A stretch of 64,000 nucleotides of DNA. Source: Bacillota bacterium (GTDB lineage: Bacteria > Bacillota > Sulfobacillia > Sulfobacillales > Sulfobacillaceae). How positions within the stretch are numbered: position 1 is the first letter of the stretch; each line of letters opens with the position of its first letter. The stretch covers positions 1 through 64,000 of the forward strand of contig JAKBWA010000062.1 of assembly GCA_021841025.1 (NCBI GenBank), read 5' to 3'. Under the pieces are notes generated by a model. The model did not search any database, was not told where the DNA came from, and saw nothing but the letters and a program-made list of their open reading frames with translations. The translations under genes were made by a program, and so were the position numbers. Of the stretch, positions 3,534 through 17,479 are shown one piece after another.

Positions 3534-4331
3534 ATGCGGCCGAGTGAGCGGCAAGAGAAAATCTTAATATGGATAGCGCAACACCGAGGAGGATCGGTTA
3601 AAGACCTCGCCCAAGTTCTCGGGGTTTCGGAAATGACGATTCGCCGCGATGTCCAGGCCTTGGAACAAGACGATTTCCTGGAACAGAAAAGGGGCATTAT
3701 TGATATTAAGAACAGTGCCACAGAATTATCTTTTTCCGTCAAAAGACGCCTGAATCAGCTCGAAAAAGAGCACATAGCACGCATGGCTCTCGGTATGGTT
3801 GAACCGGGAATGACTATCGGCCTTTCCGCTGGCACCACGACATGGGCCATTGCTCATGGAATCCGTGGGTTTTTGGATTTGACCTTTGTGAGCAATTCAA
3901 CCAATATCGCATTAGAGTTGCAGCGCCAAGGTTGGTCACAGATTATTCTGACGGGCGGCAACTTCCGCACCCCTTCCGATGCGTTAGTGGGGCCTTTTGC
4001 GGAATACACGGCCAGGCACCTGCACACCGACCTGTTGTTTTTAGGTGTCCACGGTTTAGATATACATGAGGGAATGAGTACTCCTAACATTCAAGAGGCG
4101 GCTATCGATCAGGTATTTATTCAACACACTGAACGCGTTATTGTCGTCATGGATCCGACTAAATGGGGGGTCAAGGCTTTGGCTCATATCGCTGGATTGG
4201 ACGCGATTGACACAATTATTACCTGTGATAGTCCTTTGACTCGTGTCTATGCGCCGCAGGCTAGGGAACAAGGGGTCAATGTGATACTGCCCCCTCCTTT
4301 GTCACCAACAAAAGAAGGACAGCCGATATGA
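3534..4331 (+). CDS. DeoR-family transcriptional regulator of the galactose operon
   Basis: Typical DeoR repressor: N-terminal winged helix (R-Q-E-K-I-L, V-S-E-M-T-I-R-R-D-V, about residues 4-55) followed by a sugar-phosphate isomerase-like sensor domain with S-A-G-T-T-T near residue 100 and the D-x-T-K-W block near the end. It is the first gene of a five-gene operon and overlaps the next gene by four bases (ATGA), so it probably controls the operon in response to a galactose pathway phosphate ester. I prefer ATG 3534, preceded by GGGGGA. An in-frame ATG at 3507 would add nine residues and has a weaker ribosome site. AT-rich DNA at 3480-3510 is a likely promoter zone. Confidence 0.9.
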   Translation: MRPSERQEKILIWIAQHRGGSVKDLAQVLGVSEMTIRRDVQALEQDDFLEQKRGIIDIKNSATELSFSVKRRLNQLEKEHIARMALGMVEPGMTIGLSAGTTTWAIAHGIRGFLDLTFVSNSTNIALELQRQGWSQIILTGGNFRTPSDALVGPFAEYTARHLHTDLLFLGVHGLDIHEGMSTPNIQEAAIDQVFIQHTERVIVVMDPTKWGVKALAHIAGLDAIDTIITCDSPLTRVYAPQAREQGVNVILPPPLSPTKEGQPI

Positions 4332-5143
4332 AAAAAGTGGAAGGCTTGACTAAACATCAGAGCGATGGGAGAAATATCTGGTACTATCGTCTTCCTGACA
4401 GTAGGCGTAAACCGAAACCTTTGGTACGAGTCGTGACCGGTTCCAACGTTTTAGCTGTTGAGATGGCTAGGCGGATACAAGACGTGACACCGACTATTTT
4501 AGTCGGTCCGGGAAATCCGGACGTGGGCTCTTGTGAAGTAATATCCAATCCCTGGACGACTCCCGAGGTTTGGGAATGGATAAGTCACCGTTATCAGATT
4601 CGCTGTGTCTATCACTGGGGTTTATGGGATCATGGGCTGGACGGCTCAGCCGATATGCTGTTTTCTTCTATCGTGAATGATGGCTTGGGCCTTATAGAGA
4701 CAATTCATGCCGTTAACAATCCGGGATTGATATTGGCTTTGCCCGAATCTTTCTCTCCCGGCACTCCTCAAGTTATCGAGGAAGCTGTGAATCAATTGGC
4801 CCAGCAAGTTCGGATTGTTTCTCGGAGCAAACAATGGCCGTATGCCATGATTCATATGCCGAAGAATTTTGCCATCACAGATCCCGATGAATTTCTCATG
4901 AAGAGAAATAGTCCGTCTTGGTCTTCGCCCCCAGCCGTTCTTGTGCGTGATTCCTTAGTGGAGGCTTGTCTCTTTGAGGACGTTCAGATGAGTGGTGATA
5001 GCCTCTTGGGTGAAGATGGGCCAAAGATCCTTACAGCATATTCGGATTCGGCTGGGAGTGGCGGGGACAACGAAGATTGGAGTGTGTCGGCCTTGCTTCA
5101 GAGATCGGAGCTTTTCGTTCCTGAATTGCTAGACGAGCGATAA
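4328..5143 (+). CDS. Unrecognised protein in the gal operon
   Basis: A 271-residue protein I do not recognise. It starts inside the stop of the DeoR gene (ATGA) and ends 18 bases before galT, so it is a true operon member, in the slot often held by galE. Residues about 35-170 have the alternating strand/helix look of a Rossmann-like fold (V-R-V-V-T-G-S, T-I-L-V-G-P-G, V-Y-H-W-G-L-W-D). The pattern distantly resembles the non-catalytic subdomain of polyketide ketoreductases. There is no G-x-x-G-x-x-G nucleotide loop and no Y-x-x-x-K catalytic pair, so an active SDR or epimerase is not supported. The last 60 residues are acidic and serine/glycine-rich. The role is unknown; a degenerate epimerase relative or accessory protein are the options. 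Confidence 0.8.
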   Translation: MKKVEGLTKHQSDGRNIWYYRLPDSRRKPKPLVRVVTGSNVLAVEMARRIQDVTPTILVGPGNPDVGSCEVISNPWTTPEVWEWISHRYQIRCVYHWGLWDHGLDGSADMLFSSIVNDGLGLIETIHAVNNPGLILALPESFSPGTPQVIEEAVNQLAQQVRIVSRSKQWPYAMIHMPKNFAITDPDEFLMKRNSPSWSSPPAVLVRDSLVEACLFEDVQMSGDSLLGEDGPKILTAYSDSAGSGGDNEDWSVSALLQRSELFVPELLDER

Positions 5144-9312: not shown

Positions 9313-10137
9313 ATGGAAGGACGAGTGAAATCTGCAGATCGTGTGGTGATGGTGTTGTCGGCCATCGCTGACATTCCGGGGGGGCTATCCTTTACCGATC
9401 TATTAAACAAGACAGGTCTGCCGAAAAGCAGTCTTCACGGCATTATTCAGACTATGGTAGTCAATTCGATGATCACGTACGATGATGTCACCCGAGTATA
9501 CTACTTTGGACCCAAGATGTGGGAATTGGCGATGAAATATTATGATCGGCTTCATTTGGTCCCTTTAGCCTGGCCTTATGTCGAACGGTTGCGGGATACC
9601 TGCGGACAAACTGTGCAGATGGCTGTGTTGGAAGGACAAGATGTGCTTTACGTGGCTAAAGCTGAATCCCACCGTCCGTTGCAAATGGCATCCTATGTGG
9701 GCAGCAGATTGCCGGCTTATGCGACGGGATTAGGGAAAGCTCTCTTAGCCACTATGGCAAGTTCTCGCCTTCGAACCATTTTTCCCAAGGAACCTTGGCG
9801 TGCTTTCACCAAAATGACCATCACGCGTTATGATGACTTGCTTGAGAAGTTGCAACAAATTCGTGAAAAGGGATTTGCCGAAGATATAGGAGAATATTCG
9901 CCCGATATCAGGTGCCTTGCCTATCCTGTCCTAGGGCTGGAAAATATGGGCGTCGCCGCCATTAGTGTGTCGATTTCTGCCGATGAGTTTGCATCGGTGG
10001 ATAAAGGTGATGTGGTTCAGGCTCTGCACCGCGAGTGTCACCTTTTGGCCAGACGCTTAGGGAGTACTGACCCGGAAGCGTGGCGCCAGGGTACTGAAAT
10101 TGAGTTTTCGCCCTCCGTTCGCGAAAAGTTACTGTGA
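9313..10137 (+). CDS. IclR-family transcriptional regulator
   Basis: N-terminal winged helix (A-D-R-V-V-M-V-L-S-A-I with G-L-P-K-S-S-L-H-G recognition region, about residues 8-60) and a C-terminal ligand-binding domain (V-Q-M-A-V-L-E-G-Q-D-V-L-Y-V, G-T/S-R-L-P-A-Y-A-T-G-L-G-K-A-L-L-A, Y-S-P-D-I-R-C-L-A-Y-P-V), all in family order. AGGAGG at 9301-9306 sets the start at ATG 9313; earlier in-frame codons lack a site. It sits immediately upstream of the alpha-galactosidase gene and probably controls the GH36-GH37-transporter-GH78 block through the repeated motif at 10155 and 13852. That link is inference. Confidence 0.92.
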   Translation: MEGRVKSADRVVMVLSAIADIPGGLSFTDLLNKTGLPKSSLHGIIQTMVVNSMITYDDVTRVYYFGPKMWELAMKYYDRLHLVPLAWPYVERLRDTCGQTVQMAVLEGQDVLYVAKAESHRPLQMASYVGSRLPAYATGLGKALLATMASSRLRTIFPKEPWRAFTKMTITRYDDLLEKLQQIREKGFAEDIGEYSPDIRCLAYPVLGLENMGVAAISVSISADEFASVDKGDVVQALHRECHLLARRLGSTDPEAWRQGTEIEFSPSVREKLL

Positions 10138-10154: not shown

Positions 10155-10178
10155 GAACTTATGTTCTCCATAGTGAAC
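10155..10178. promoter_or_regulatory. Candidate operator, copy 1 (GAAC-N4-GTTC-N8-GAAC)
   Basis: GAAC-TTAT-GTTC lies inside a perfect 7-bp hairpin (GGAGAAC 10152-10158 with GTTCTCC 10163-10169), followed eight bases later by another GAAC at 10175-10178. The same three-half-site layout occurs at 13852-13875, where the inner 12-mer is the exact reverse complement. It sits 42 bases before the GH36 start codon. Binding by the adjacent IclR protein is inferred. The core also resembles a Gram-positive LexA box. Confidence 0.55.
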
Positions 10179-10220
10179 ACTTAGCCAAAGATCACATTAC
10201 GCCAGGATCAGGAGGATGTT

Positions 10221-12473
10221 ATGCCGATCGAGATAGATCGCGACCATTTGATCTTTCATTTAAACGGCCCTGATTCCAGCTACGTGATGGCAATAACCCC
10301 GCAAGGATACCTTGCGCATCTGTACTGGGGAAAACGTCTGGCTGCTTCACCCACACTGTTGAGGGTTCTGCCGTTAATGTCCCGACCTTTTTCCGTGACC
10401 CGAGAGCGAGATTCATCATGGTCTTTGGATTTGCTTCCGCAGGAATATCCCGGTTTGGGGCATGGCGACTTGCGTGCTCCGGCCTATCAGGTTCTCTTGG
10501 ACGATGGGACAATGGTGTTAGATCCCAAATATCAAACACATCGGGTTATGGCCGGCAAGCCAACTCTGAACCAATTGCCTCATATTCGCGTGGAATCATC
10601 AGAGATGGCCGAAAGTCTCGAGATTGAATTGGAAGATAGCTATTCCCAACTTCATATTACGCTCCTCTATACGGTCTTCACCCATCTGGACGTAGTGGTC
10701 CGTTCTGTGCGATTTGTTAATCACTCGGGTCATTCTATGCGAATTCTGAGAGCTTTGTCTGCTACGGTGGATTTTTTAGAACATCCTTGGGATATTATTT
10801 CGTTGCCAGGGGCCTGGGGGCGTGAGCGGGTGATTCAAAGAAGCCCTTTAGGACAAGGGATGATATCGGCGGAAAGCAGGTGCGGCATATCGAGTCATCA
10901 GGCCAATCCTTTTTGGGCTATGCTAAGCCCTGACACGACCGAAGAAACGGGGGAAGTGTTCGCCTTCAACTTGGTTTACAGCGGTAATTTTTTGGTTTTT
11001 TCGGAAATGGATCAGTATCACCAAGTTCGCAGCGGAATAGGGATCAATCCCTTGGACTTTTCGTGGCTATTAGAACCCCACGAGACATTTCAGACTCCTG
11101 AAGCGGTATTAGTTTATTCGGATAAGGGACTCGAAACAATGTCCTGGAATTTTCACGCCCTTTATGGCGAACATTTAAACCAAGGGCAGTGGCAACACCG
11201 GGAAAGGCCTATTGTCATTAATAATTGGGAGGCCACCTATTTTTCTTTTACGGAAGAAAAATTGCTGGATATTGCTAAGGCAGCCGCGAATCTGGGCATT
11301 GAACTGTTTGTTTTAGATGACGGTTGGTTTGCACAGCGCAATGATGATAGACACTCACTTGGCGACTACGAGGTCAATCTCGAGAAACTGCCACGAGGCC
11401 TTGGAGTGCTGGCAGAAGAAATCAATCGGCGAGGGCTCGCTTTTGGCTTGTGGGTCGAACCGGAAATGGTTTCTCCCGACAGTGATTTGTACCGACAGCA
11501 TCCTGATTGGTGTTTGCAAGTGTCCCACCGCGCGTCCTCGTGGGGCCGAAATCAGCTTGTGCTCGATCTCTCGCGCGAGGATGTGCAAAACTGGATCATC
11601 AAGACCTTGTCCAAGGTGTTTCAGAAGGCCAATATTGCGTATGTGAAGTGGGATATGAACCGCAGTTTAACGGAAATGGGTTCGCCCTGGCTGCCTGAAA
11701 AACGCCGGCAAGAAACCGCTCACCGCTATGTGCTGGGCCTTTACCGGATTCTTGATGTGTTAACCGGTCTTTTTCCCCAGATCTTGTTTGAAGGTTGCTC
11801 GGGTGGCGGAGGGCGGTTTGACCCAGGAATCCTCTATTATATGCCGCAAATTTGGACGAGTGACACTACAGATGCAGCTGAGAGAGCAAAAATCCAATAC
11901 GGAACCAGTGTTGTCTACCCACCTGCGGTTATGACGGCTCATGTCTCAGGAGTACCGAATCATCAACTGGGCCGGATCATGCCTTGGGATGCCCGGCACT
12001 GGATGGCGATGTCGGCTAATTTTGGCTATGAGCTGGATCTTGCCGCACTCACGCCCAACGAACGCACTGAAGCAATAGAATATATTCAATTTTATAAGAA
12101 CACGTTGCGTAAGCTGGTGCAATGGGGGCGTTTTTCCCGCTTGCAAGATCCTTTCACTACCGGTGGGGTGTCTTGGATGTTTTCCGACGGTGAGGGTAAC
12201 GAAATCGTGGTGATTTACCTTTGCTTAAGAACAGAGGTCAATTCCATTCGCACGTGGATTAAGCTGCGTCATTTGCACCCGGCCGCGCGTTATCATATCC
12301 GCTGTTTCGGAGAAAAACAAGAAGCCCAGGATTCGTGGGTAGTCCTGGGAGGTGATGAGCTGATGAGTGTGGGCTTATCTGTGTGGCCTGGTTACGACGG
12401 TTTTGCCCGGGCGTGGCACCTCATTCGGGACAAAAAGAGAGTGGCCCCGGATTCCAACGATCTGCTCTCTTGA
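10221..12473 (+). CDS. Alpha-galactosidase, GH36
   Basis: Hydrolyses terminal alpha-1,6-galactose from raffinose, melibiose or stachyose-type sugars. At 750 residues it has the full GH36 layout: N-terminal beta-sandwich (1-320), catalytic barrel (about 330-640) and C-terminal sheet. Seen: D-D-G-W-F near 374, the nucleophile block V-K-W-D-M-N-R near 480, and the acid/base region C-S-G-G-G-G-R-F-D-P-G ... W-T-S-D-T-T-D-A near 530-555. There is no signal peptide, so it acts inside the cell on imported sugar. ATG 10221 follows a CAGGAGGATG-type site. Released galactose would enter the galT-galK-galM pathway encoded 2 kb upstream. Confidence 0.94.
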   Translation: MPIEIDRDHLIFHLNGPDSSYVMAITPQGYLAHLYWGKRLAASPTLLRVLPLMSRPFSVTRERDSSWSLDLLPQEYPGLGHGDLRAPAYQVLLDDGTMVLDPKYQTHRVMAGKPTLNQLPHIRVESSEMAESLEIELEDSYSQLHITLLYTVFTHLDVVVRSVRFVNHSGHSMRILRALSATVDFLEHPWDIISLPGAWGRERVIQRSPLGQGMISAESRCGISSHQANPFWAMLSPDTTEETGEVFAFNLVYSGNFLVFSEMDQYHQVRSGIGINPLDFSWLLEPHETFQTPEAVLVYSDKGLETMSWNFHALYGEHLNQGQWQHRERPIVINNWEATYFSFTEEKLLDIAKAAANLGIELFVLDDGWFAQRNDDRHSLGDYEVNLEKLPRGLGVLAEEINRRGLAFGLWVEPEMVSPDSDLYRQHPDWCLQVSHRASSWGRNQLVLDLSREDVQNWIIKTLSKVFQKANIAYVKWDMNRSLTEMGSPWLPEKRRQETAHRYVLGLYRILDVLTGLFPQILFEGCSGGGGRFDPGILYYMPQIWTSDTTDAAERAKIQYGTSVVYPPAVMTAHVSGVPNHQLGRIMPWDARHWMAMSANFGYELDLAALTPNERTEAIEYIQFYKNTLRKLVQWGRFSRLQDPFTTGGVSWMFSDGEGNEIVVIYLCLRTEVNSIRTWIKLRHLHPAARYHIRCFGEKQEAQDSWVVLGGDELMSVGLSVWPGYDGFARAWHLIRDKKRVAPDSNDLLS

Positions 12474-12552
12474 CCCATGAGTCAAGGAGAAGGGATAACA
12501 AAAGGACTGATGGTGAAACAAATATCACGGCCCTGAAAGCAAAGGAGTTATC

Positions 12553-13755
12553 ATGCCATTCTTAAGTGAGGAAGAAAAAATCTCCGCATGGGAGTTGTAT
12601 CAGCGCATTGCCGGTTGGTGGCATGAGGATCAGAGGCATGGCAACTTATCTGAGGATACATGGATCCCTCTGCCGCGCGCGTATATCACCCCTGGCGGCC
12701 AGGAATCAGTGTTCCCGGAGCTTTATTATTGGGATTCTTACTTCATTGTGCGAGGACTTTTGGCGCATGATGAAGTGATGATGGCGCGCGATCAAATTGA
12801 CAACTTGCTGGATTTGGCCGCACGCTTCGGATTTGTGCCCAACGGCAATCGGAGTTTTTATCTCACGCGCTCCCAACCGCCCCTTCTAACAGCTATGGCG
12901 AAGGCCTATTACACTTATACGAAAAATCGCCGATGGCTTAACGAATCCTTGGAATGGATGGTCAAGGAATTGGCCTATTGGTTTGATGGCCCTCATTGCC
13001 CTCAAGGTGATTTGGCCCGGTGGTTTGATTTAGGGGATCCGGGGCTGTCTGCTGAATTGGCTAGTGAAGCAGAATCAGGATGGGACTTTACCGCGAGGTT
13101 TGAAGGCGATGCCAGACGTTTTTATGCTGTGGACCTTAACGCATTATTGTACGGAATGATGCGAGATCTGAGTTTTTTTGCCGAGGAACTCGGTAAAGGG
13201 CAAGAAGCTTTGCAATACCGTCAGCGAGCCCAGAACTTCTTACGGCAAATGCACCGCGTATTGTGGGATCCGGTGCATGGGGAGTATCGCGACTGGAATT
13301 TTGAAGTTGGCACCTTTAGTTCGGTATCGTCTTTGGCATCCTTTTACCCCTTATGGACACGCTGTGCATCCGATAGTCAAGCCCGGAAGCTTTCGACTCG
13401 CGTGACTGACTTTTCCAGATCCTGTGGACTCGTCGCTACAGATCGTATCTATCCTAGTCCCCATCCCCAATTCGATTTTGTGCAGTGGGGAGATCCCATT
13501 ATGTGGGCTCCTTTGCAACTCATTGTGGCGGAAGGCCTCAAAGGATATGGGTTCACCGTCTATGCCCAAGACATCGCGCAAACTTATTTGCGCGTGATCT
13601 TAAAGAGGTACCAAGAAACAGGCAAACTCTATGAAAAATACCATGCAGAGACGGGAAACGAGGATGTTCCCCAGGAACGCTATCCGAATCCCCCATTTCA
13701 TGGCTGGTCAGCAGGCGTGTTTGCGGTGTTTGCCAAAGAAATAATGGCGTTCTAA
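12553..13755 (+). CDS. GH37 trehalase-family glycoside hydrolase
   Basis: A 400-residue (alpha/alpha)6-barrel enzyme. The first trehalase signature is recognisable (T-P-G-G-Q-E-S-V-F-P-E-L-Y-Y-W-D-S-Y near residues 46-62), as is P-N-G-N-R-S-F-Y-L-T-R-S-Q-P-P. The second signature is altered: F-V-Q-W-G-D-P-I-M-W-A-P in place of Q-W-D-x-P-x-G-W-A-P. The protein is shorter than classic trehalases (about 540). The C-terminal E-D-V-P-Q-E-R-Y ... H-G-W-S region holds a candidate catalytic Glu. There is no signal peptide. Its place among galactoside and rhamnoside genes leaves open a substrate other than trehalose. Confidence 0.85.
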   Translation: MPFLSEEEKISAWELYQRIAGWWHEDQRHGNLSEDTWIPLPRAYITPGGQESVFPELYYWDSYFIVRGLLAHDEVMMARDQIDNLLDLAARFGFVPNGNRSFYLTRSQPPLLTAMAKAYYTYTKNRRWLNESLEWMVKELAYWFDGPHCPQGDLARWFDLGDPGLSAELASEAESGWDFTARFEGDARRFYAVDLNALLYGMMRDLSFFAEELGKGQEALQYRQRAQNFLRQMHRVLWDPVHGEYRDWNFEVGTFSSVSSLASFYPLWTRCASDSQARKLSTRVTDFSRSCGLVATDRIYPSPHPQFDFVQWGDPIMWAPLQLIVAEGLKGYGFTVYAQDIAQTYLRVILKRYQETGKLYEKYHAETGNEDVPQERYPNPPFHGWSAGVFAVFAKEIMAF

Positions 13756-13811
13756 TTTAGGGCGGTGAGCATCTTTCGGGGTGAAAATATGACGCTATTA
13801 GTCGGAGATTA

Positions 13812-13838
13812 TTGATTTTATTAATTCACTATTATAAA
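13812..13838 (+). promoter_or_regulatory. Candidate promoter of the lost transporter operon
   Basis: TTGATT at 13812-13817 and TATAAA at 13833-13838 are 15 bases apart, a little short, in AT-rich DNA. The motif at 13852-13875 lies just downstream, where a bound repressor would block initiation or early elongation. Confidence 0.4.
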
Positions 13839-13851
13839 TAGTATCAATCGC

Positions 13852-13875
13852 GAACATAAGTTCATGTTTGTGAAC
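13852..13875. promoter_or_regulatory. Candidate operator, copy 2 (GAAC-N4-GTTC-N8-GAAC)
   Basis: GAAC-ATAA-GTTC followed by eight bases and GAAC. Spacing and half-sites are identical to the copy at 10155-10178, and both copies have GT immediately before the third GAAC. It lies 28 bases before the TTG start of the transporter remnant. Confidence 0.55.
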
Positions 13876-14012: not shown

Positions 14013-14763
14013 TAGTGGTATTGCCAAGCCCAATCGGCTCTTGTTCCAGAAATTTCAATCCGTTTTCCCCTACGGATTTGCCAGGTACAACCGTCGTCAG
14101 CAGTTGCAACGCCCATTACAGCTGATTACCAATACGCGCTATAATATAGAGAGTTTGCTTGAGGCCGTTGGTTTGTCTCGTGACTTACAACATAAGTTAC
14201 CTCACGAGTTGTCGGGGGGGCAGCGTCAGCGAGTGGTAATTGCTCGTGCGATGGCGTTGAATCCTGAGATTATTGTCGCTGACGAGCCCATCTCTATGCT
14301 TGACGTTTCTATACGCGCGAGTATTTTGTTCTTAATGAATGACCTGAGAACCCGTTATCAGGTGAGTTACCTCTATATAACCCCTGATCTGGCTTCGGCA
14401 CGGTTTTTCTCGGATCGCATCATGGTTATGTATGGTGGGCATCTAGTTGAAATAGCTGATTCGTCGGAATTAATTCGCCGTCCGTCCCATCCTTATACCC
14501 AGTTGCTGTTAGCCGCCACGCCAAGTAAACATCGCAAAAAGACGACCTTGCCGCAAAAGGGTTATGGCGTCCCCAATTTATGGTCCACGCAAAAGGGGTG
14601 CCCGTTCGCACCTCGGTGTCTTTACGTTCAGGATGCCTGTCATGTCACCCGTCCACCCTGGACTTGGATAACCTCAACACATGGCGTTGCTTGTTTTGCG
14701 TGGGACCAATTCAGAATTGGTGCGGGTGCCAAGAACCATATAAAATTTGAGAATATACCATGA
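14012..14763 (+). pseudogene. Oligopeptide/dipeptide ABC transporter ATPase, truncated
   Basis: The C-terminal two thirds of an OppF/DppF-type ATPase. The ABC signature (E-L-S-G-G-Q-R-Q-R-V), Walker B (I-I-V-A-D-E-P) and the C-terminal peptide-transporter motif with G-C-P-F-A-P-R-C are intact. Walker A is absent and the Q-loop region is scrambled. The switch histidine is replaced (I-T-P-D-L instead of I-T-H-D-L). The protein could not hydrolyse ATP normally. It ends 22 bases before the GH78 gene. Family members also import plant-derived oligosaccharides, which would fit the neighbouring hydrolases; the permease genes are missing from the window. Confidence 0.85.
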
Positions 14764-14785: not shown

Positions 14786-17479
14786 ATGCCGGATTTGCTG
14801 GCAACGGACTTGACGGCTGTAAATTTAAAGGTTGAATATTTGCCAAATCCCCTGGGGCTCGACGTCTTTAATCCAAGATTCAACTGGAGTGTTCAAGGCC
14901 AGGGCAGAAATCGCAAACAAAGTGCCTACCAGATAACCGTATTGTCTCAGTCTAATCCTCCTGCCGTCGTATGGGATACGAAGAAGGTTGTCTCCTCTGA
15001 CACCCTTCACATCGCTTATCAAGGTCTTCCGTTGAAGCCTAAAAAGCGATACACCTGGCAAGTTCGAATTTGGGACGAGAAGGATCGGGGATCGCGGGTT
15101 ACCTCGTCGTGGTGGGAAACGGGGATGTTGCATCAAGAAGAATGGTCGGCAAAATGGATCGGAAGTGCTGGAAAAAAAGCGGGAGAGCAGGAGTTTACGG
15201 ACCGTTCCCCCCCGGAAACGGAACTGGCTCCCGGCGTATTTATTCGCAAGGTCTTTAATCTCAACACGTCTGTGAAGCGGGCCAGACTGTATGCTTCTGC
15301 TTTAGGACTTTACATGCCTTTTATCAATGGCAGGCGGATTAGTCCCGACCTGTTCACGCCCGGATGGACCGATTACACCCAGCGCCTTACCTACCAAACC
15401 TATGACATCACGCCCTATCTGCTCTCGGGAAGCAATGCGCTGGGAGTGATTCTAGGAGAGGGTTGGTACAGTGGATCTGTGGGTTTTAGGACAAAGAAAC
15501 CCCGCCATCACTATGGAGACCATCCTCTTTTTATCGCTCAAATTGAATGGGTCGATGAAAAAGGGTGCCTGGGCCGCGTCGTGAGTGATGGGACTTGGCG
15601 CTATCAAGACAAGGGCCCGATACGATATTCGGATTTCTTGGCAGGGGAATACTATGATGCCCGTTGTGAAATGCCTGGCTGGGCTAGTGAGCCGTTTGAC
15701 GAGGGAAACTGGGAGAATGTGCAAGAAGCTGTTCGTATAAAGCCTGTTCCTCTGTATGGGGAAAAGACGTTGCCTGTGAGGATTACCGAGATGCGTCTGC
15801 CGCAAAATGTTAGACGATTCTCTGCGTTGCGCCAGATTGTCGATTTCGGCCAAAATATGGCAGGATGGGTACGCATTAAAGTTAAAGGACCGACAGGTGC
15901 CAGACTCCAACTGCGGTTTGCCGAAATGCTGACAGAAGAGAAAGAACTCTATACGGCCAACTTCCGCTCCGCGAAAAATACGGACACCTTTATATTGCGA
16001 GGAGACGGAGTAGAGAGTTGGGAGCCACATTTTACGATTCATGGGTTTCGCTATGTAGAAATTTCTTCGAATTCAGCTGAGGTGTGTTTTGAGCAAATCG
16101 CCGCCTGTGTGATTCATAATGACTTACCTGGGACTGGAGAGTTTCAGTGTTCCAGTGAAATGGTTAATCAATTGCAACGAAATATCCAGTGGAGCCAGCG
16201 CAGTAATTTTGTGAGCATTCCCACAGATTGTCCGCAACGCGACGAAAGACTCGGATGGTTGGCTGATGCCCATATTTTCGCTAGAACGGCCATGTTCAAT
16301 ATGGATGTTTCCAGTTTCTTCACCAAATGGCTCGATGATGTTAAAGATGCGCAATCCCCGGAAGGGGCCTTTTCGGTGGTCGCGCCCAGACTGGTGGACG
16401 AAGGAGACGGGGCGCCGGGATGGGGAGACGCGGGCATTATCCTTCCCTGGACTATGTACTTAGTCTATGGCGACAGGAGGATATTGGAAGTCCTTTATCC
16501 TGCCATGGCGAAGTGGCTTGACTATATCGGCGAGGTGAATCCCCAGTATTTGTGGGTGAACCGCCGGAATCATGATTTTGGCGACTGGCTGGCCCTTGGG
16601 GAGGAGACGCCGAAAGAACTGATTGCCACCGCCTTTTGGGCCTATGATGCGTGTTTGATGAGCCGGATAGCGAAGATTTTGGGCAAAAGTGATGAGGCTA
16701 GAAGTTACCGGTCGTTATTTCGCCGCATCCAAAGTGCATTTGTGGACGCGTTCGTCGCCGCTGATGGAGAGATTCAAGGAAATACCGAGAGTGCCTATGC
16801 CATGGCTCTTTTTATGCATCTTCTTCCGCGTGCCTTGCGACAGAACGCAGGAAAAAAATTGGTGAGTGCTATAAAGGATCGGCACAATCATGTCTCCACC
16901 GGGTTTCTCGGCATCAGCTATCTTCTTCCTGCTCTGAGCCACAGTGCTCACGATGAGGTGGCTTATCAGCTTCTCTTGAATACGACCTATCCCTCCTGGG
17001 GATACCAGATTCTTAATGGGGCGACAACATTGTGGGAACGGTGGAACGGGTGGACTCGCAACCAGGGGTTTCACCCGTCCGATCTGAATTCTTTTAATCA
17101 TTATGCCTTCGGCTCTGTCGGCGATTGGCTCTACCGTTTTGCTGCTGGCATTGACACCGACCCGAGATACCCTGGATACCAGCACATTGTCATTCGACCG
17201 CGCATAGGCCCATTAAACTGGGTCAAAGCCTCATATGACTCAATTCACGGACGGATTACCGTATTTTGGACAGTGGCGGGGAATGATTTGACCCTGGATG
17301 TCAGTATTCCGGTCAATACCACCGCCACCATTTATTTTCCCTTAACTGAAGATCGGCAGATTCTTGAGGATGAACTGTCGGCAGCAAAGGCGTCAGGGGT
17401 CCTCAATTATCGTCGTAATTCCCATGGTACCATCATAGACATTGGATCTGGACACTACCATTTTGTTTCCGAGAGGTAA
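14786..17479 (+). CDS. Alpha-L-rhamnosidase, GH78
   Basis: An 897-residue enzyme that removes terminal alpha-L-rhamnose from plant glycosides or polysaccharides. Domains in order: N-terminal Ig-like/beta domains with the V-E-Y-L-P-N-P-L-G-L-D opening and W-x-A-K-W-I-G block, a jelly-roll module, then the (alpha/alpha)6 catalytic domain. That domain has I-P-T-D-C-P-Q-R-D-E-R-L-G-W near 480 (general acid region) and a W-E-R-W-N block near 750 with a conserved Glu. There is no signal peptide, so it is intracellular. ATG 14786 follows CCGGAGGG. It is the last gene of the IclR-linked block. Confidence 0.94.
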   Translation: MPDLLATDLTAVNLKVEYLPNPLGLDVFNPRFNWSVQGQGRNRKQSAYQITVLSQSNPPAVVWDTKKVVSSDTLHIAYQGLPLKPKKRYTWQVRIWDEKDRGSRVTSSWWETGMLHQEEWSAKWIGSAGKKAGEQEFTDRSPPETELAPGVFIRKVFNLNTSVKRARLYASALGLYMPFINGRRISPDLFTPGWTDYTQRLTYQTYDITPYLLSGSNALGVILGEGWYSGSVGFRTKKPRHHYGDHPLFIAQIEWVDEKGCLGRVVSDGTWRYQDKGPIRYSDFLAGEYYDARCEMPGWASEPFDEGNWENVQEAVRIKPVPLYGEKTLPVRITEMRLPQNVRRFSALRQIVDFGQNMAGWVRIKVKGPTGARLQLRFAEMLTEEKELYTANFRSAKNTDTFILRGDGVESWEPHFTIHGFRYVEISSNSAEVCFEQIAACVIHNDLPGTGEFQCSSEMVNQLQRNIQWSQRSNFVSIPTDCPQRDERLGWLADAHIFARTAMFNMDVSSFFTKWLDDVKDAQSPEGAFSVVAPRLVDEGDGAPGWGDAGIILPWTMYLVYGDRRILEVLYPAMAKWLDYIGEVNPQYLWVNRRNHDFGDWLALGEETPKELIATAFWAYDACLMSRIAKILGKSDEARSYRSLFRRIQSAFVDAFVAADGEIQGNTESAYAMALFMHLLPRALRQNAGKKLVSAIKDRHNHVSTGFLGISYLLPALSHSAHDEVAYQLLLNTTYPSWGYQILNGATTLWERWNGWTRNQGFHPSDLNSFNHYAFGSVGDWLYRFAAGIDTDPRYPGYQHIVIRPRIGPLNWVKASYDSIHGRITVFWTVAGNDLTLDVSIPVNTTATIYFPLTEDRQILEDELSAAKASGVLNYRRNSHGTIIDIGSGHYHFVSER

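Follow-up and report, generated by a model that had tools for sequence, protein, structure and literature searches.

The two copies of the motif GAAC-N4-GTTC-N8-GAAC found in the 64-kb stretch of DNA analyzed here (the window) are in all likelihood part of a conserved circuit of small size that controls the use of L-rhamnose, and not of a galactose-sugar circuit. Comparison with related genomes makes it probable that both sites constitute three-box operators of the protein encoded by the adjacent IclR-family gene, which would control uptake and oxidation of L-rhamnose together with the breakdown of oligosaccharides that contain rhamnose; the binding, the repression, the inducer, and the sigma factor involved are predicted.

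Two copies of a three-box motif in the window

The motif occurs twice on the forward strand, just upstream of start codons (Table 1), exactly as the earlier note on this DNA had described, and nowhere else in the window. Chance would hardly produce this pair, as 100 dinucleotide shuffles of the window yielded a mean of 0.02 matches and none of them contained two or more. Scanning the entire genome (3,391,785 bases in 118 contigs), as the earlier note had suggested, revealed three exact copies compared with one for the reversed control pattern. The only copy beyond the window pair, on contig C19, lies by our own reading inside an RNase R-like reading frame and was therefore rejected as an operator.

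Table 1. Predicted genes and operators of the regulon segment of the window
Feature	Coordinates	Strand	Remarks
IclR-family regulator, 274 aa	9313..10137	+	Pfam HTH_IclR and IclR_C over cut-off; co-occurs with the sites
Three-box operator 1 (putative)	10155..10178	+	42 nt before GH36 ATG (10221); box 3 faces the gene
GH36 alpha-galactosidase	10221..12473	+	Pfam Melibiase plus the N and C domains of GH36; AgaB and AgaA are the closest solved structures
Short trehalase-like (GH37-type) glycosidase, 400 aa	12553..13755	+	Pfam Trehalase; solved trehalases match in pieces
Three-box operator 2 (putative)	13852..13875	+	28 nt before TTG (13904) of the remnant solute-binding-protein gene
Remnant solute-binding-protein (SBP) gene, first ~65 codons	13904..14125	+	Stop at 14123-14125
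Remnant OppF, C-terminal two thirds	14093..14763	+	Frame differs from SBP start; 78% identity to OppF of genome G006
GH78 alpha-L-rhamnosidase, intact	14786..17479	+	Five Pfam rhamnosidase domains; 67% identity to GH78 of genome G006

The inner pair alone (GAAC-N4-GTTC) was at background level in the window (2 found, 0.83 expected) and below control in the genome (34 sites versus 51), and hence it is the third box that makes the two sites stand out. This bears on the explanation that the sites are LexA (SOS) boxes placed twice near the IclR gene by chance. The core of the Bacillus-type SOS box does match GAAC-N4-GTTC, and the genome carries both lexA and recA; however, a search for GAAY-N4-RTTC retrieved nothing from the loci of these two genes. 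Copies at DNA repair genes, which the earlier note had named as a finding that would refute its regulon proposal, were thus absent from both loci. Together with the shortage of inner pairs in the genome, and with the conservation of box 3 and of the close link to the IclR gene, this leaves the LexA explanation with practically no chance of being correct, and we rejected it.

Two further details of the earlier note were accurate for the window: the inner 12-mers of the two operators are exact reverse complements of each other, and GT precedes box 3 in both. Neither feature is conserved across species. Among 32 sites compared, the inner N4 varies, and the most frequent base is G in column 19 (16 sites) and A in column 20 (18 sites). 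Since the inner N4 is not conserved, it is probably by chance that the two 12-mers mirror each other. Box 3 itself is conserved, although less so at its last base. A further occurrence of the 12-mer GAACTTATGTTC, at C76:1033, was rejected as a regulon member: the surrounding sequence is an MFS-type reading frame, and box 3 is missing on both strands.

Conservation of the sites with the IclR gene

Sites with at most one mismatch were present in the IclR or rhamnose-gene loci of 22 of the 23 genomes that carry an orthologue of the IclR gene, and the gene is linked to the sites and kept with them in the same proportion of genomes. This co-occurrence supports the proposal of the earlier note that the two sites share an operator sequence for which the adjacent IclR protein is the candidate regulator. 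In locus L066 of genome G014, no site was found at this threshold. In total, the loci counted comprised 508,549 bases, 46,385 of which make up the regions immediately preceding genes of the set, and 33 of the 34 sites were located within 300 bp upstream of such genes. Loci L085 to L091 were left out of this count; four of them (L085, L086, L087, and L090) carry IclR paralogues of 31 to 36% identity and contain no site at up to one mismatch, and the other three (L088, L089, and L091) had been chosen for an exact match and are not IclR linked. In the IclR tree, which omits row L031, the 23 orthologues were separated from seven paralogues by a branch with a support of 1.000. After one mirror match had been dropped, box 3 pointed toward the catabolic gene in all 32 sites. 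As for the window operators themselves, operator 1 has a counterpart at the same place in genomes G006 (exact) and G002 (one mismatch), and operator 2 has an exact one in G006.

Most sites precede L-rhamnose-type genes

The earlier note had proposed that the sites would define a small alpha-galactoside regulon. In such a system, the IclR protein would sense an alpha-galactoside or galactose and control the GH36 enzyme and an oligosaccharide transporter. Indeed, operator 1 directly precedes the GH36 gene, and the regulator is itself preceded, at a distance of 1 kb, by a galT-galK-mutarotase cluster. Nevertheless, that cluster has no GAAC-N4-GTTC-N8-GAAC site, and linkage of GH36 to the regulator is limited to 3 of the 23 genomes (G000, G002, and G006), while sites precede L-rhamnose-type genes in 20 of the 23, the source genome of the window included. 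Two sites of the source genome, each with one mismatch, are located on contig C117 before a rhamnose-oxidation operon (C117:32171-32194) and before its MFS transporter gene (C117:26602-26625). In genomes G006 and G002, the sites in the loci examined stand solely at GH36/SBP genes; this and the single mismatches of the C117 sites count against the rhamnose reading.

The C117 genes downstream of these sites encode an Lra1-like protein, an MDR dehydrogenase, a hydrolase, an L-rhamnonate dehydratase, the mutarotase RhaM, and the MFS transporter, so that sites do lie upstream of genes of what would be a complete L-rhamnose route. The dehydratase scored over its curated cut-off; Lra1 (SDR) and didehydro-deoxy-rhamnonate hydrolase were best matches that both remained below their family cut-offs, and the sole candidate for the lactonase step is an unassigned 264-aa protein. 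The product of the MDR gene is probably the enzyme described in a 2015 study in the same genus. Furthermore, the last gene of the window operon codes for a GH78 alpha-L-rhamnosidase, and the GH36-GH37-transporter-GH78 genes of S. benefaciens continue directly into the rhamnose operon as a single uninterrupted row. Because the sites, both in relatives and on C117, mostly precede oxidative L-rhamnose genes, and because of this gene row, we favor an L-rhamnose/rhamnoside regulon. Given the rhamnose genes on C117 and this arrangement in S. benefaciens, a plain alpha-galactoside regulon appears very unlikely and was rejected. The GH36 gene is still a member, and therefore alpha-galactosides may be among the substrates. 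That the regulon is small, as had been anticipated, is borne out by the four sites found in the genome, one each upstream of GH36-GH37, of the relic transporter with GH78, of the operon for rhamnose oxidation, and of the MFS gene.

Loss of the transporter

The earlier note had also recognized a lost transporter operon, and the comparison of loci agrees with it, since SBP and OppF remnants persist in the window whereas the operon is intact in S. benefaciens. The deletion in the Opp-type transporter spans early SBP to mid OppF, with a junction at about 14093-14125, and the SBP remnant shares 70% identity with residues 6 to 65 of the 548-aa protein of G006. Judged by these remains, operator 2 now stands before what is left of a deleted sugar transporter, and it is now the only operator upstream of GH78. 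A paralogous SBP is encoded elsewhere in the genome (C92:80268, 50% identity); its 4.6-kb locus contains no site at up to one mismatch.

Promoter context and proposed mechanism

A sigma-70 promoter scan at both window sites found nothing. Promoters of the sigma-H type combine an AGGA-type −35 element and a GAAT-type −10 element at fixed spacing, and a sigma-H gene is present in the genome. A sigma-H-like pattern was found at 27 of the 32 sites compared with 115 of 20,000 random 60-mers: it lies upstream of all 27 rhamnose-gene and MFS sites and of none of the five GH36/SBP sites. If the promoters are correctly assigned, box 1 begins 10 to 29 nt downstream of the −10-like GAA at each of these 27 promoters. 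In some cases, 7 nt separate the end of the site from the start codon. Both distances point to the position of a repressor and not to that of a classical activator. They thereby argue against the alternative that the same protein acts on the same operators as an activator, needing a sugar acid to turn the genes on. This alternative draws on RhcR, which is described as an activator of haloarchaeal rhamnose catabolism (PMC11519228), and because of this precedent the sign of control may differ here; we nevertheless consider activation unlikely.

Under the favored repressor model, an IclR dimer or tetramer would, without inducer, occupy the inverted pair (boxes 1 and 2) and box 3, the direct repeat of box 1 located 20 bp further on. 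The occupied boxes would lie at the transcription start, just below the −10 element of a promoter that is sigma-H-like in appearance at the rhamnose and MFS genes, and would block transcription. A pathway intermediate (rhamnose, rhamnonate, or 2-keto-3-deoxyrhamnonate) would then release the regulator.

More tentatively, with the odds slightly against it, a broader picture can be proposed for the Sulfobacillus family and a neighboring family of its order. There, sigma-H-type (transition-state) promoters would drive L-rhamnose oxidation, and a polar three-box IclR operator across the transcription start, its box 3 always facing the gene, would lock it. The GH36-GH37-Opp-GH78 cassette would have been added to this set, governed by the same operator but by a promoter of another type, and its transporter would have been lost in two of the three genomes with the cassette. 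If so, the scavenging of rhamnose would be coupled to the stationary or sporulation state, and the three-box complex, being asymmetric, would always be oriented in one way with respect to transcription. Together with the constant orientation of box 3, the sigma-H-like promoters make it directly testable whether sugar scavenging is linked to growth phase in Sulfobacillus-type bacteria. An IclR-family protein of acidophilic Firmicutes also gains a predicted target motif, a regulon of four sites, and a class of inducers that can be tested.

Comparison with known IclR systems

Three-box operators of the IclR family have been described, with PcaU, PobR, and HmgR cited as the experimental cases (Suvorova and Gelfand 2021, PMC8222616). 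The consensus given there is an inverted pair with a 3- to 4-nt gap (group 2), whose second box is shared with a pair with a 7- to 8-nt gap (group 1), the boxes alternating in direction. The window motif, exact in both copies, has this architecture: an inverted pair with a 4-nt gap is followed by GTTC-N8-GAAC, box 3 repeats box 1 in the same direction at a distance of two helical turns, and an IclR gene is nearby. The main text of that paper mentions neither rhamnose nor Sulfobacillus, and its passages considered here do not discuss a fixed polarity of box 3 or sigma-H-like promoters, both of which are seen in the present set. The paper treats alternative dimerization at three-box operators as a hypothesis that needs experiment, a question that these two features make testable. 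The window regulator scored 134.7 bits against the PcaR/PcaU/PobR subfamily model TIGR02431, below the cut-off of 284.75.

Among IclR regulators of rhamnose or rhamnonate use, the literature search returned mentions of RhcR and RhmR only, and both are likened to the window regulator by description only. RhcR, an IclR-like activator of haloarchaeal L-rhamnose catabolism (Reinhardt et al. 2019, cited in PMC11519228), shares the family and the link to rhamnose catabolism but is archaeal and an activator. YfaX/RhmR of Escherichia coli, an IclR-like regulator of rhamnonate use (PMC12445098), likewise belongs to the family and adjoins rhamnonate catabolism genes; it differs in acting on rhamnonate, with an aldolase route. 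Collectively, the architecture of its sites suggests that the window system represents a rhamnose case of the already known IclR three-box operator type, to which it would add this sugar.

Conservation of a three-box operator

The motif GAAC-N4-GTTC-N8-GAAC, consisting of an inverted pair (boxes 1 and 2) and a third GAAC (box 3), occurs exactly, within the window, at only the two positions reported in the earlier note (Table), while shuffled window sequence contained a mean of 0.02 matches. The genome scan that the note had called for, carried out on the genome of the window (G000), yielded three exact matches; the third, on contig C19, falls within a reading frame and was rejected as an operator. 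Since the inner pair alone occurs at background level in both the window and the genome, the signal is carried by the third box.

Summed over 61 genomes (G000 and 60 relatives), the exact pattern gave 31 matches versus 25 for a reversed control, and 12 of the 31, spread over 10 genomes, lie at operons linked to the window-type IclR gene. We then collected loci by homology to IclR or rhamnonate dehydratase, without use of the motif (L062-L084 and L165-L173; 508,549 bases, small overlaps included). These loci held 34 sites with at most one mismatch, 33 of them within 300 bp upstream of the genes of the set, a space of 46,385 bases. Box 3 pointed toward the catabolic gene in all 32 sites counted, a count that leaves out one mirror match (L080:9307). 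Operator columns 1-3, 10-12, 21, and 23 were invariant over 32 sites, partly because sites were admitted only with at most one mismatch. Collectively, these data revealed that the operator pair is real and conserved.

The neighboring IclR protein as the probable regulator

The product of the adjacent gene contains both IclR domains, and 32 of the 61 genomes encode a match at an E value of ≤1e-30. Matches with at least 43% identity, found in 23 genomes, were taken as orthologues; in a tree of 30 rows (one further row, in the wrong frame, was left out), these 23 split from 7 weaker paralogues with a branch support of 1.000. Across the recognition helix, 22 of the 23 orthologues share the sequence P[KR]SSLH, the remaining one having a stop at that place, and all 7 paralogues are of the KST- or IST-type. 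A site with at most one mismatch accompanied the orthologue in 22 of the 23 genomes; the sole exception, G014, carries a site with two mismatches upstream of an MDR dehydrogenase gene. No site with at most one mismatch was found in the pieces fetched from three genomes with a rhamnonate-dehydratase-like gene and no regulator orthologue (G028, G036, and G037). The adjacent IclR protein, already proposed as the candidate, would thus bind the operator pair and is most likely its regulator.

Table. Coordinates of operators and genes
Feature	Location	Remark
271-aa reading frame	window 4328-5143	between DeoR-type regulator and galT
IclR gene	window 9313-10137	
Operator 1, before GH36	window 10155-10178	exact
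Trehalase-like protein	window 12553-13755	400 aa
Operator 2, before remnant SBP gene	window 13852-13875	exact
Operator before C117 MFS gene	C117:26602-26625	one mismatch
Operator before C117 rhamnose operon	C117:32171-32194	one mismatch
Conserved 255-264 aa protein	L165:17395-18159 (-), C117 of G000	
Conserved 255-264 aa protein, second example	L076:10701-11492	
G002 GH36-GH37 cassette	L064:533-4894	

Genes under the sites

The motif pair had been read as an alpha-galactoside regulon, but most sites in other genomes, and those on C117, another contig of G000, precede L-rhamnose-type genes. Downstream of the sites in other genomes lie genes for an unassigned protein of 264 aa, for a zinc (MDR) dehydrogenase and an SDR, for an FAA-type hydrolase and a dehydratase of the mandelate-racemase type, and for an MFS transporter; Lut genes are frequently present as well. 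The C117 dehydratase exceeded the cut-off for L-rhamnonate dehydratase (637 bits versus 393), and its nearest solved structures concur. The C117 SDR matched L-rhamnose 1-dehydrogenase Lra1 best (345 bits, under the cut-off of 400), and the best match of the C117 hydrolase was 2,4-didehydro-3-deoxy-L-rhamnonate hydrolase (210 bits, under the cut-off of 500); among solved structures, this named enzyme (8gsr) ranked fourth for the hydrolase, after HpcE-type and other entries. A rhaM mutarotase gene lies in the same row. In the available portion of PMC6336799, whose reference list includes a title naming thermosulfidooxidans, "Route III" ends in pyruvate and lactate, and a route of this kind would explain the Lut genes. 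Collectively, the regulon most likely serves L-rhamnose and rhamnosides, a reading in which we infer both the inducer and the sign of regulation.

The conserved 255-264 aa protein, encoded by the first gene in most of these rhamnose operons, had no match in Pfam or NCBIfam, and among solved structures it matched, weakly, only a glyoxylase of the beta-lactamase superfamily. Judged by position, it could be a rhamnonolactonase.

Promoter-like elements

An AGGA-N17/18-GAA element, picked only after the alignment was viewed, lies upstream of 27 of the 32 sites (spacing searched, N16-N18; one match listed per site), with its GAA 10 to 29 nt ahead of box 1. None of the 5 GH36/SBP sites has the element; the 27 rhamnose-gene and MFS sites all do. 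The reversed pattern was found at 2 and the opposite strand at 0 of the 32 sites, and 115 of 20,000 random 60-mers drawn from the same loci contained the element. We take it to resemble the B. subtilis sigma-H promoter. G000 encodes a sigma-H that passes the cut-off of its family, along with two sigma-H-like paralogues, and sigma-H would be the sigma factor at the rhamnose and MFS genes, as judged from sequence. The position of the operator over the likely transcription start argues for repression.

The stricter AGGAWWT-N14/15-GAAT occurs 51 times in G000, the C117 MFS promoter included, versus 11 times for the reversed control, which suggests some forty sigma-H-type promoters in this genome.

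An apparently lost transporter in the window

The earlier note's lost transporter operon was supported by Sulfobacillus benefaciens AMDSBA1 (G006; 81% match), whose intact order is IclR, site, GH36, GH37, site, SBP (solute-binding protein), two permeases, OppD, OppF, and GH78, followed in the same row by rhamnose and Lut genes (L063 and L166). Relative to this order, the window assembly shows an apparent deletion of roughly 4.7 kb, from about codon 65 of SBP to about codon 107 of OppF, and the OppF remnant and the SBP start lie in different frames. GH78 is intact and lies approximately 0.9 kb beyond operator 2. The G002 cassette likewise lacks the greater part of its SBP gene, with breakpoints unlike those of the window, and neither permease had a match at that locus.

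The trehalase-like protein of the window is shorter than the matched solved trehalases (535-756 aa), and its substrate may therefore be other than trehalose. The 271-aa reading frame had no Pfam or NCBIfam match.

Comparison with known systems

IclR-type regulators of rhamnose or rhamnonate use have been described in other organisms, namely RhcR, which is an activator (PMC11519228), and YfaX/RhmR (PMC12445098). The accessible text of the rhamnose regulon survey PMC3870299 names regulators of the AraC, DeoR, and LacI kinds, and the word IclR is absent from it. An L-rhamnose IclR regulon of the window type was not found in the open-licence literature searched. According to PMC8222616, 32 orthologous groups of IclR proteins have predicted three-box sites, and the experimental cases given there are PcaU, PobR, and HmgR; the window operators are identical to these sites in box spacing and direction. 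With three-box IclR sites and IclR-type rhamnose or rhamnonate regulators both described, the system is of a kind already known.
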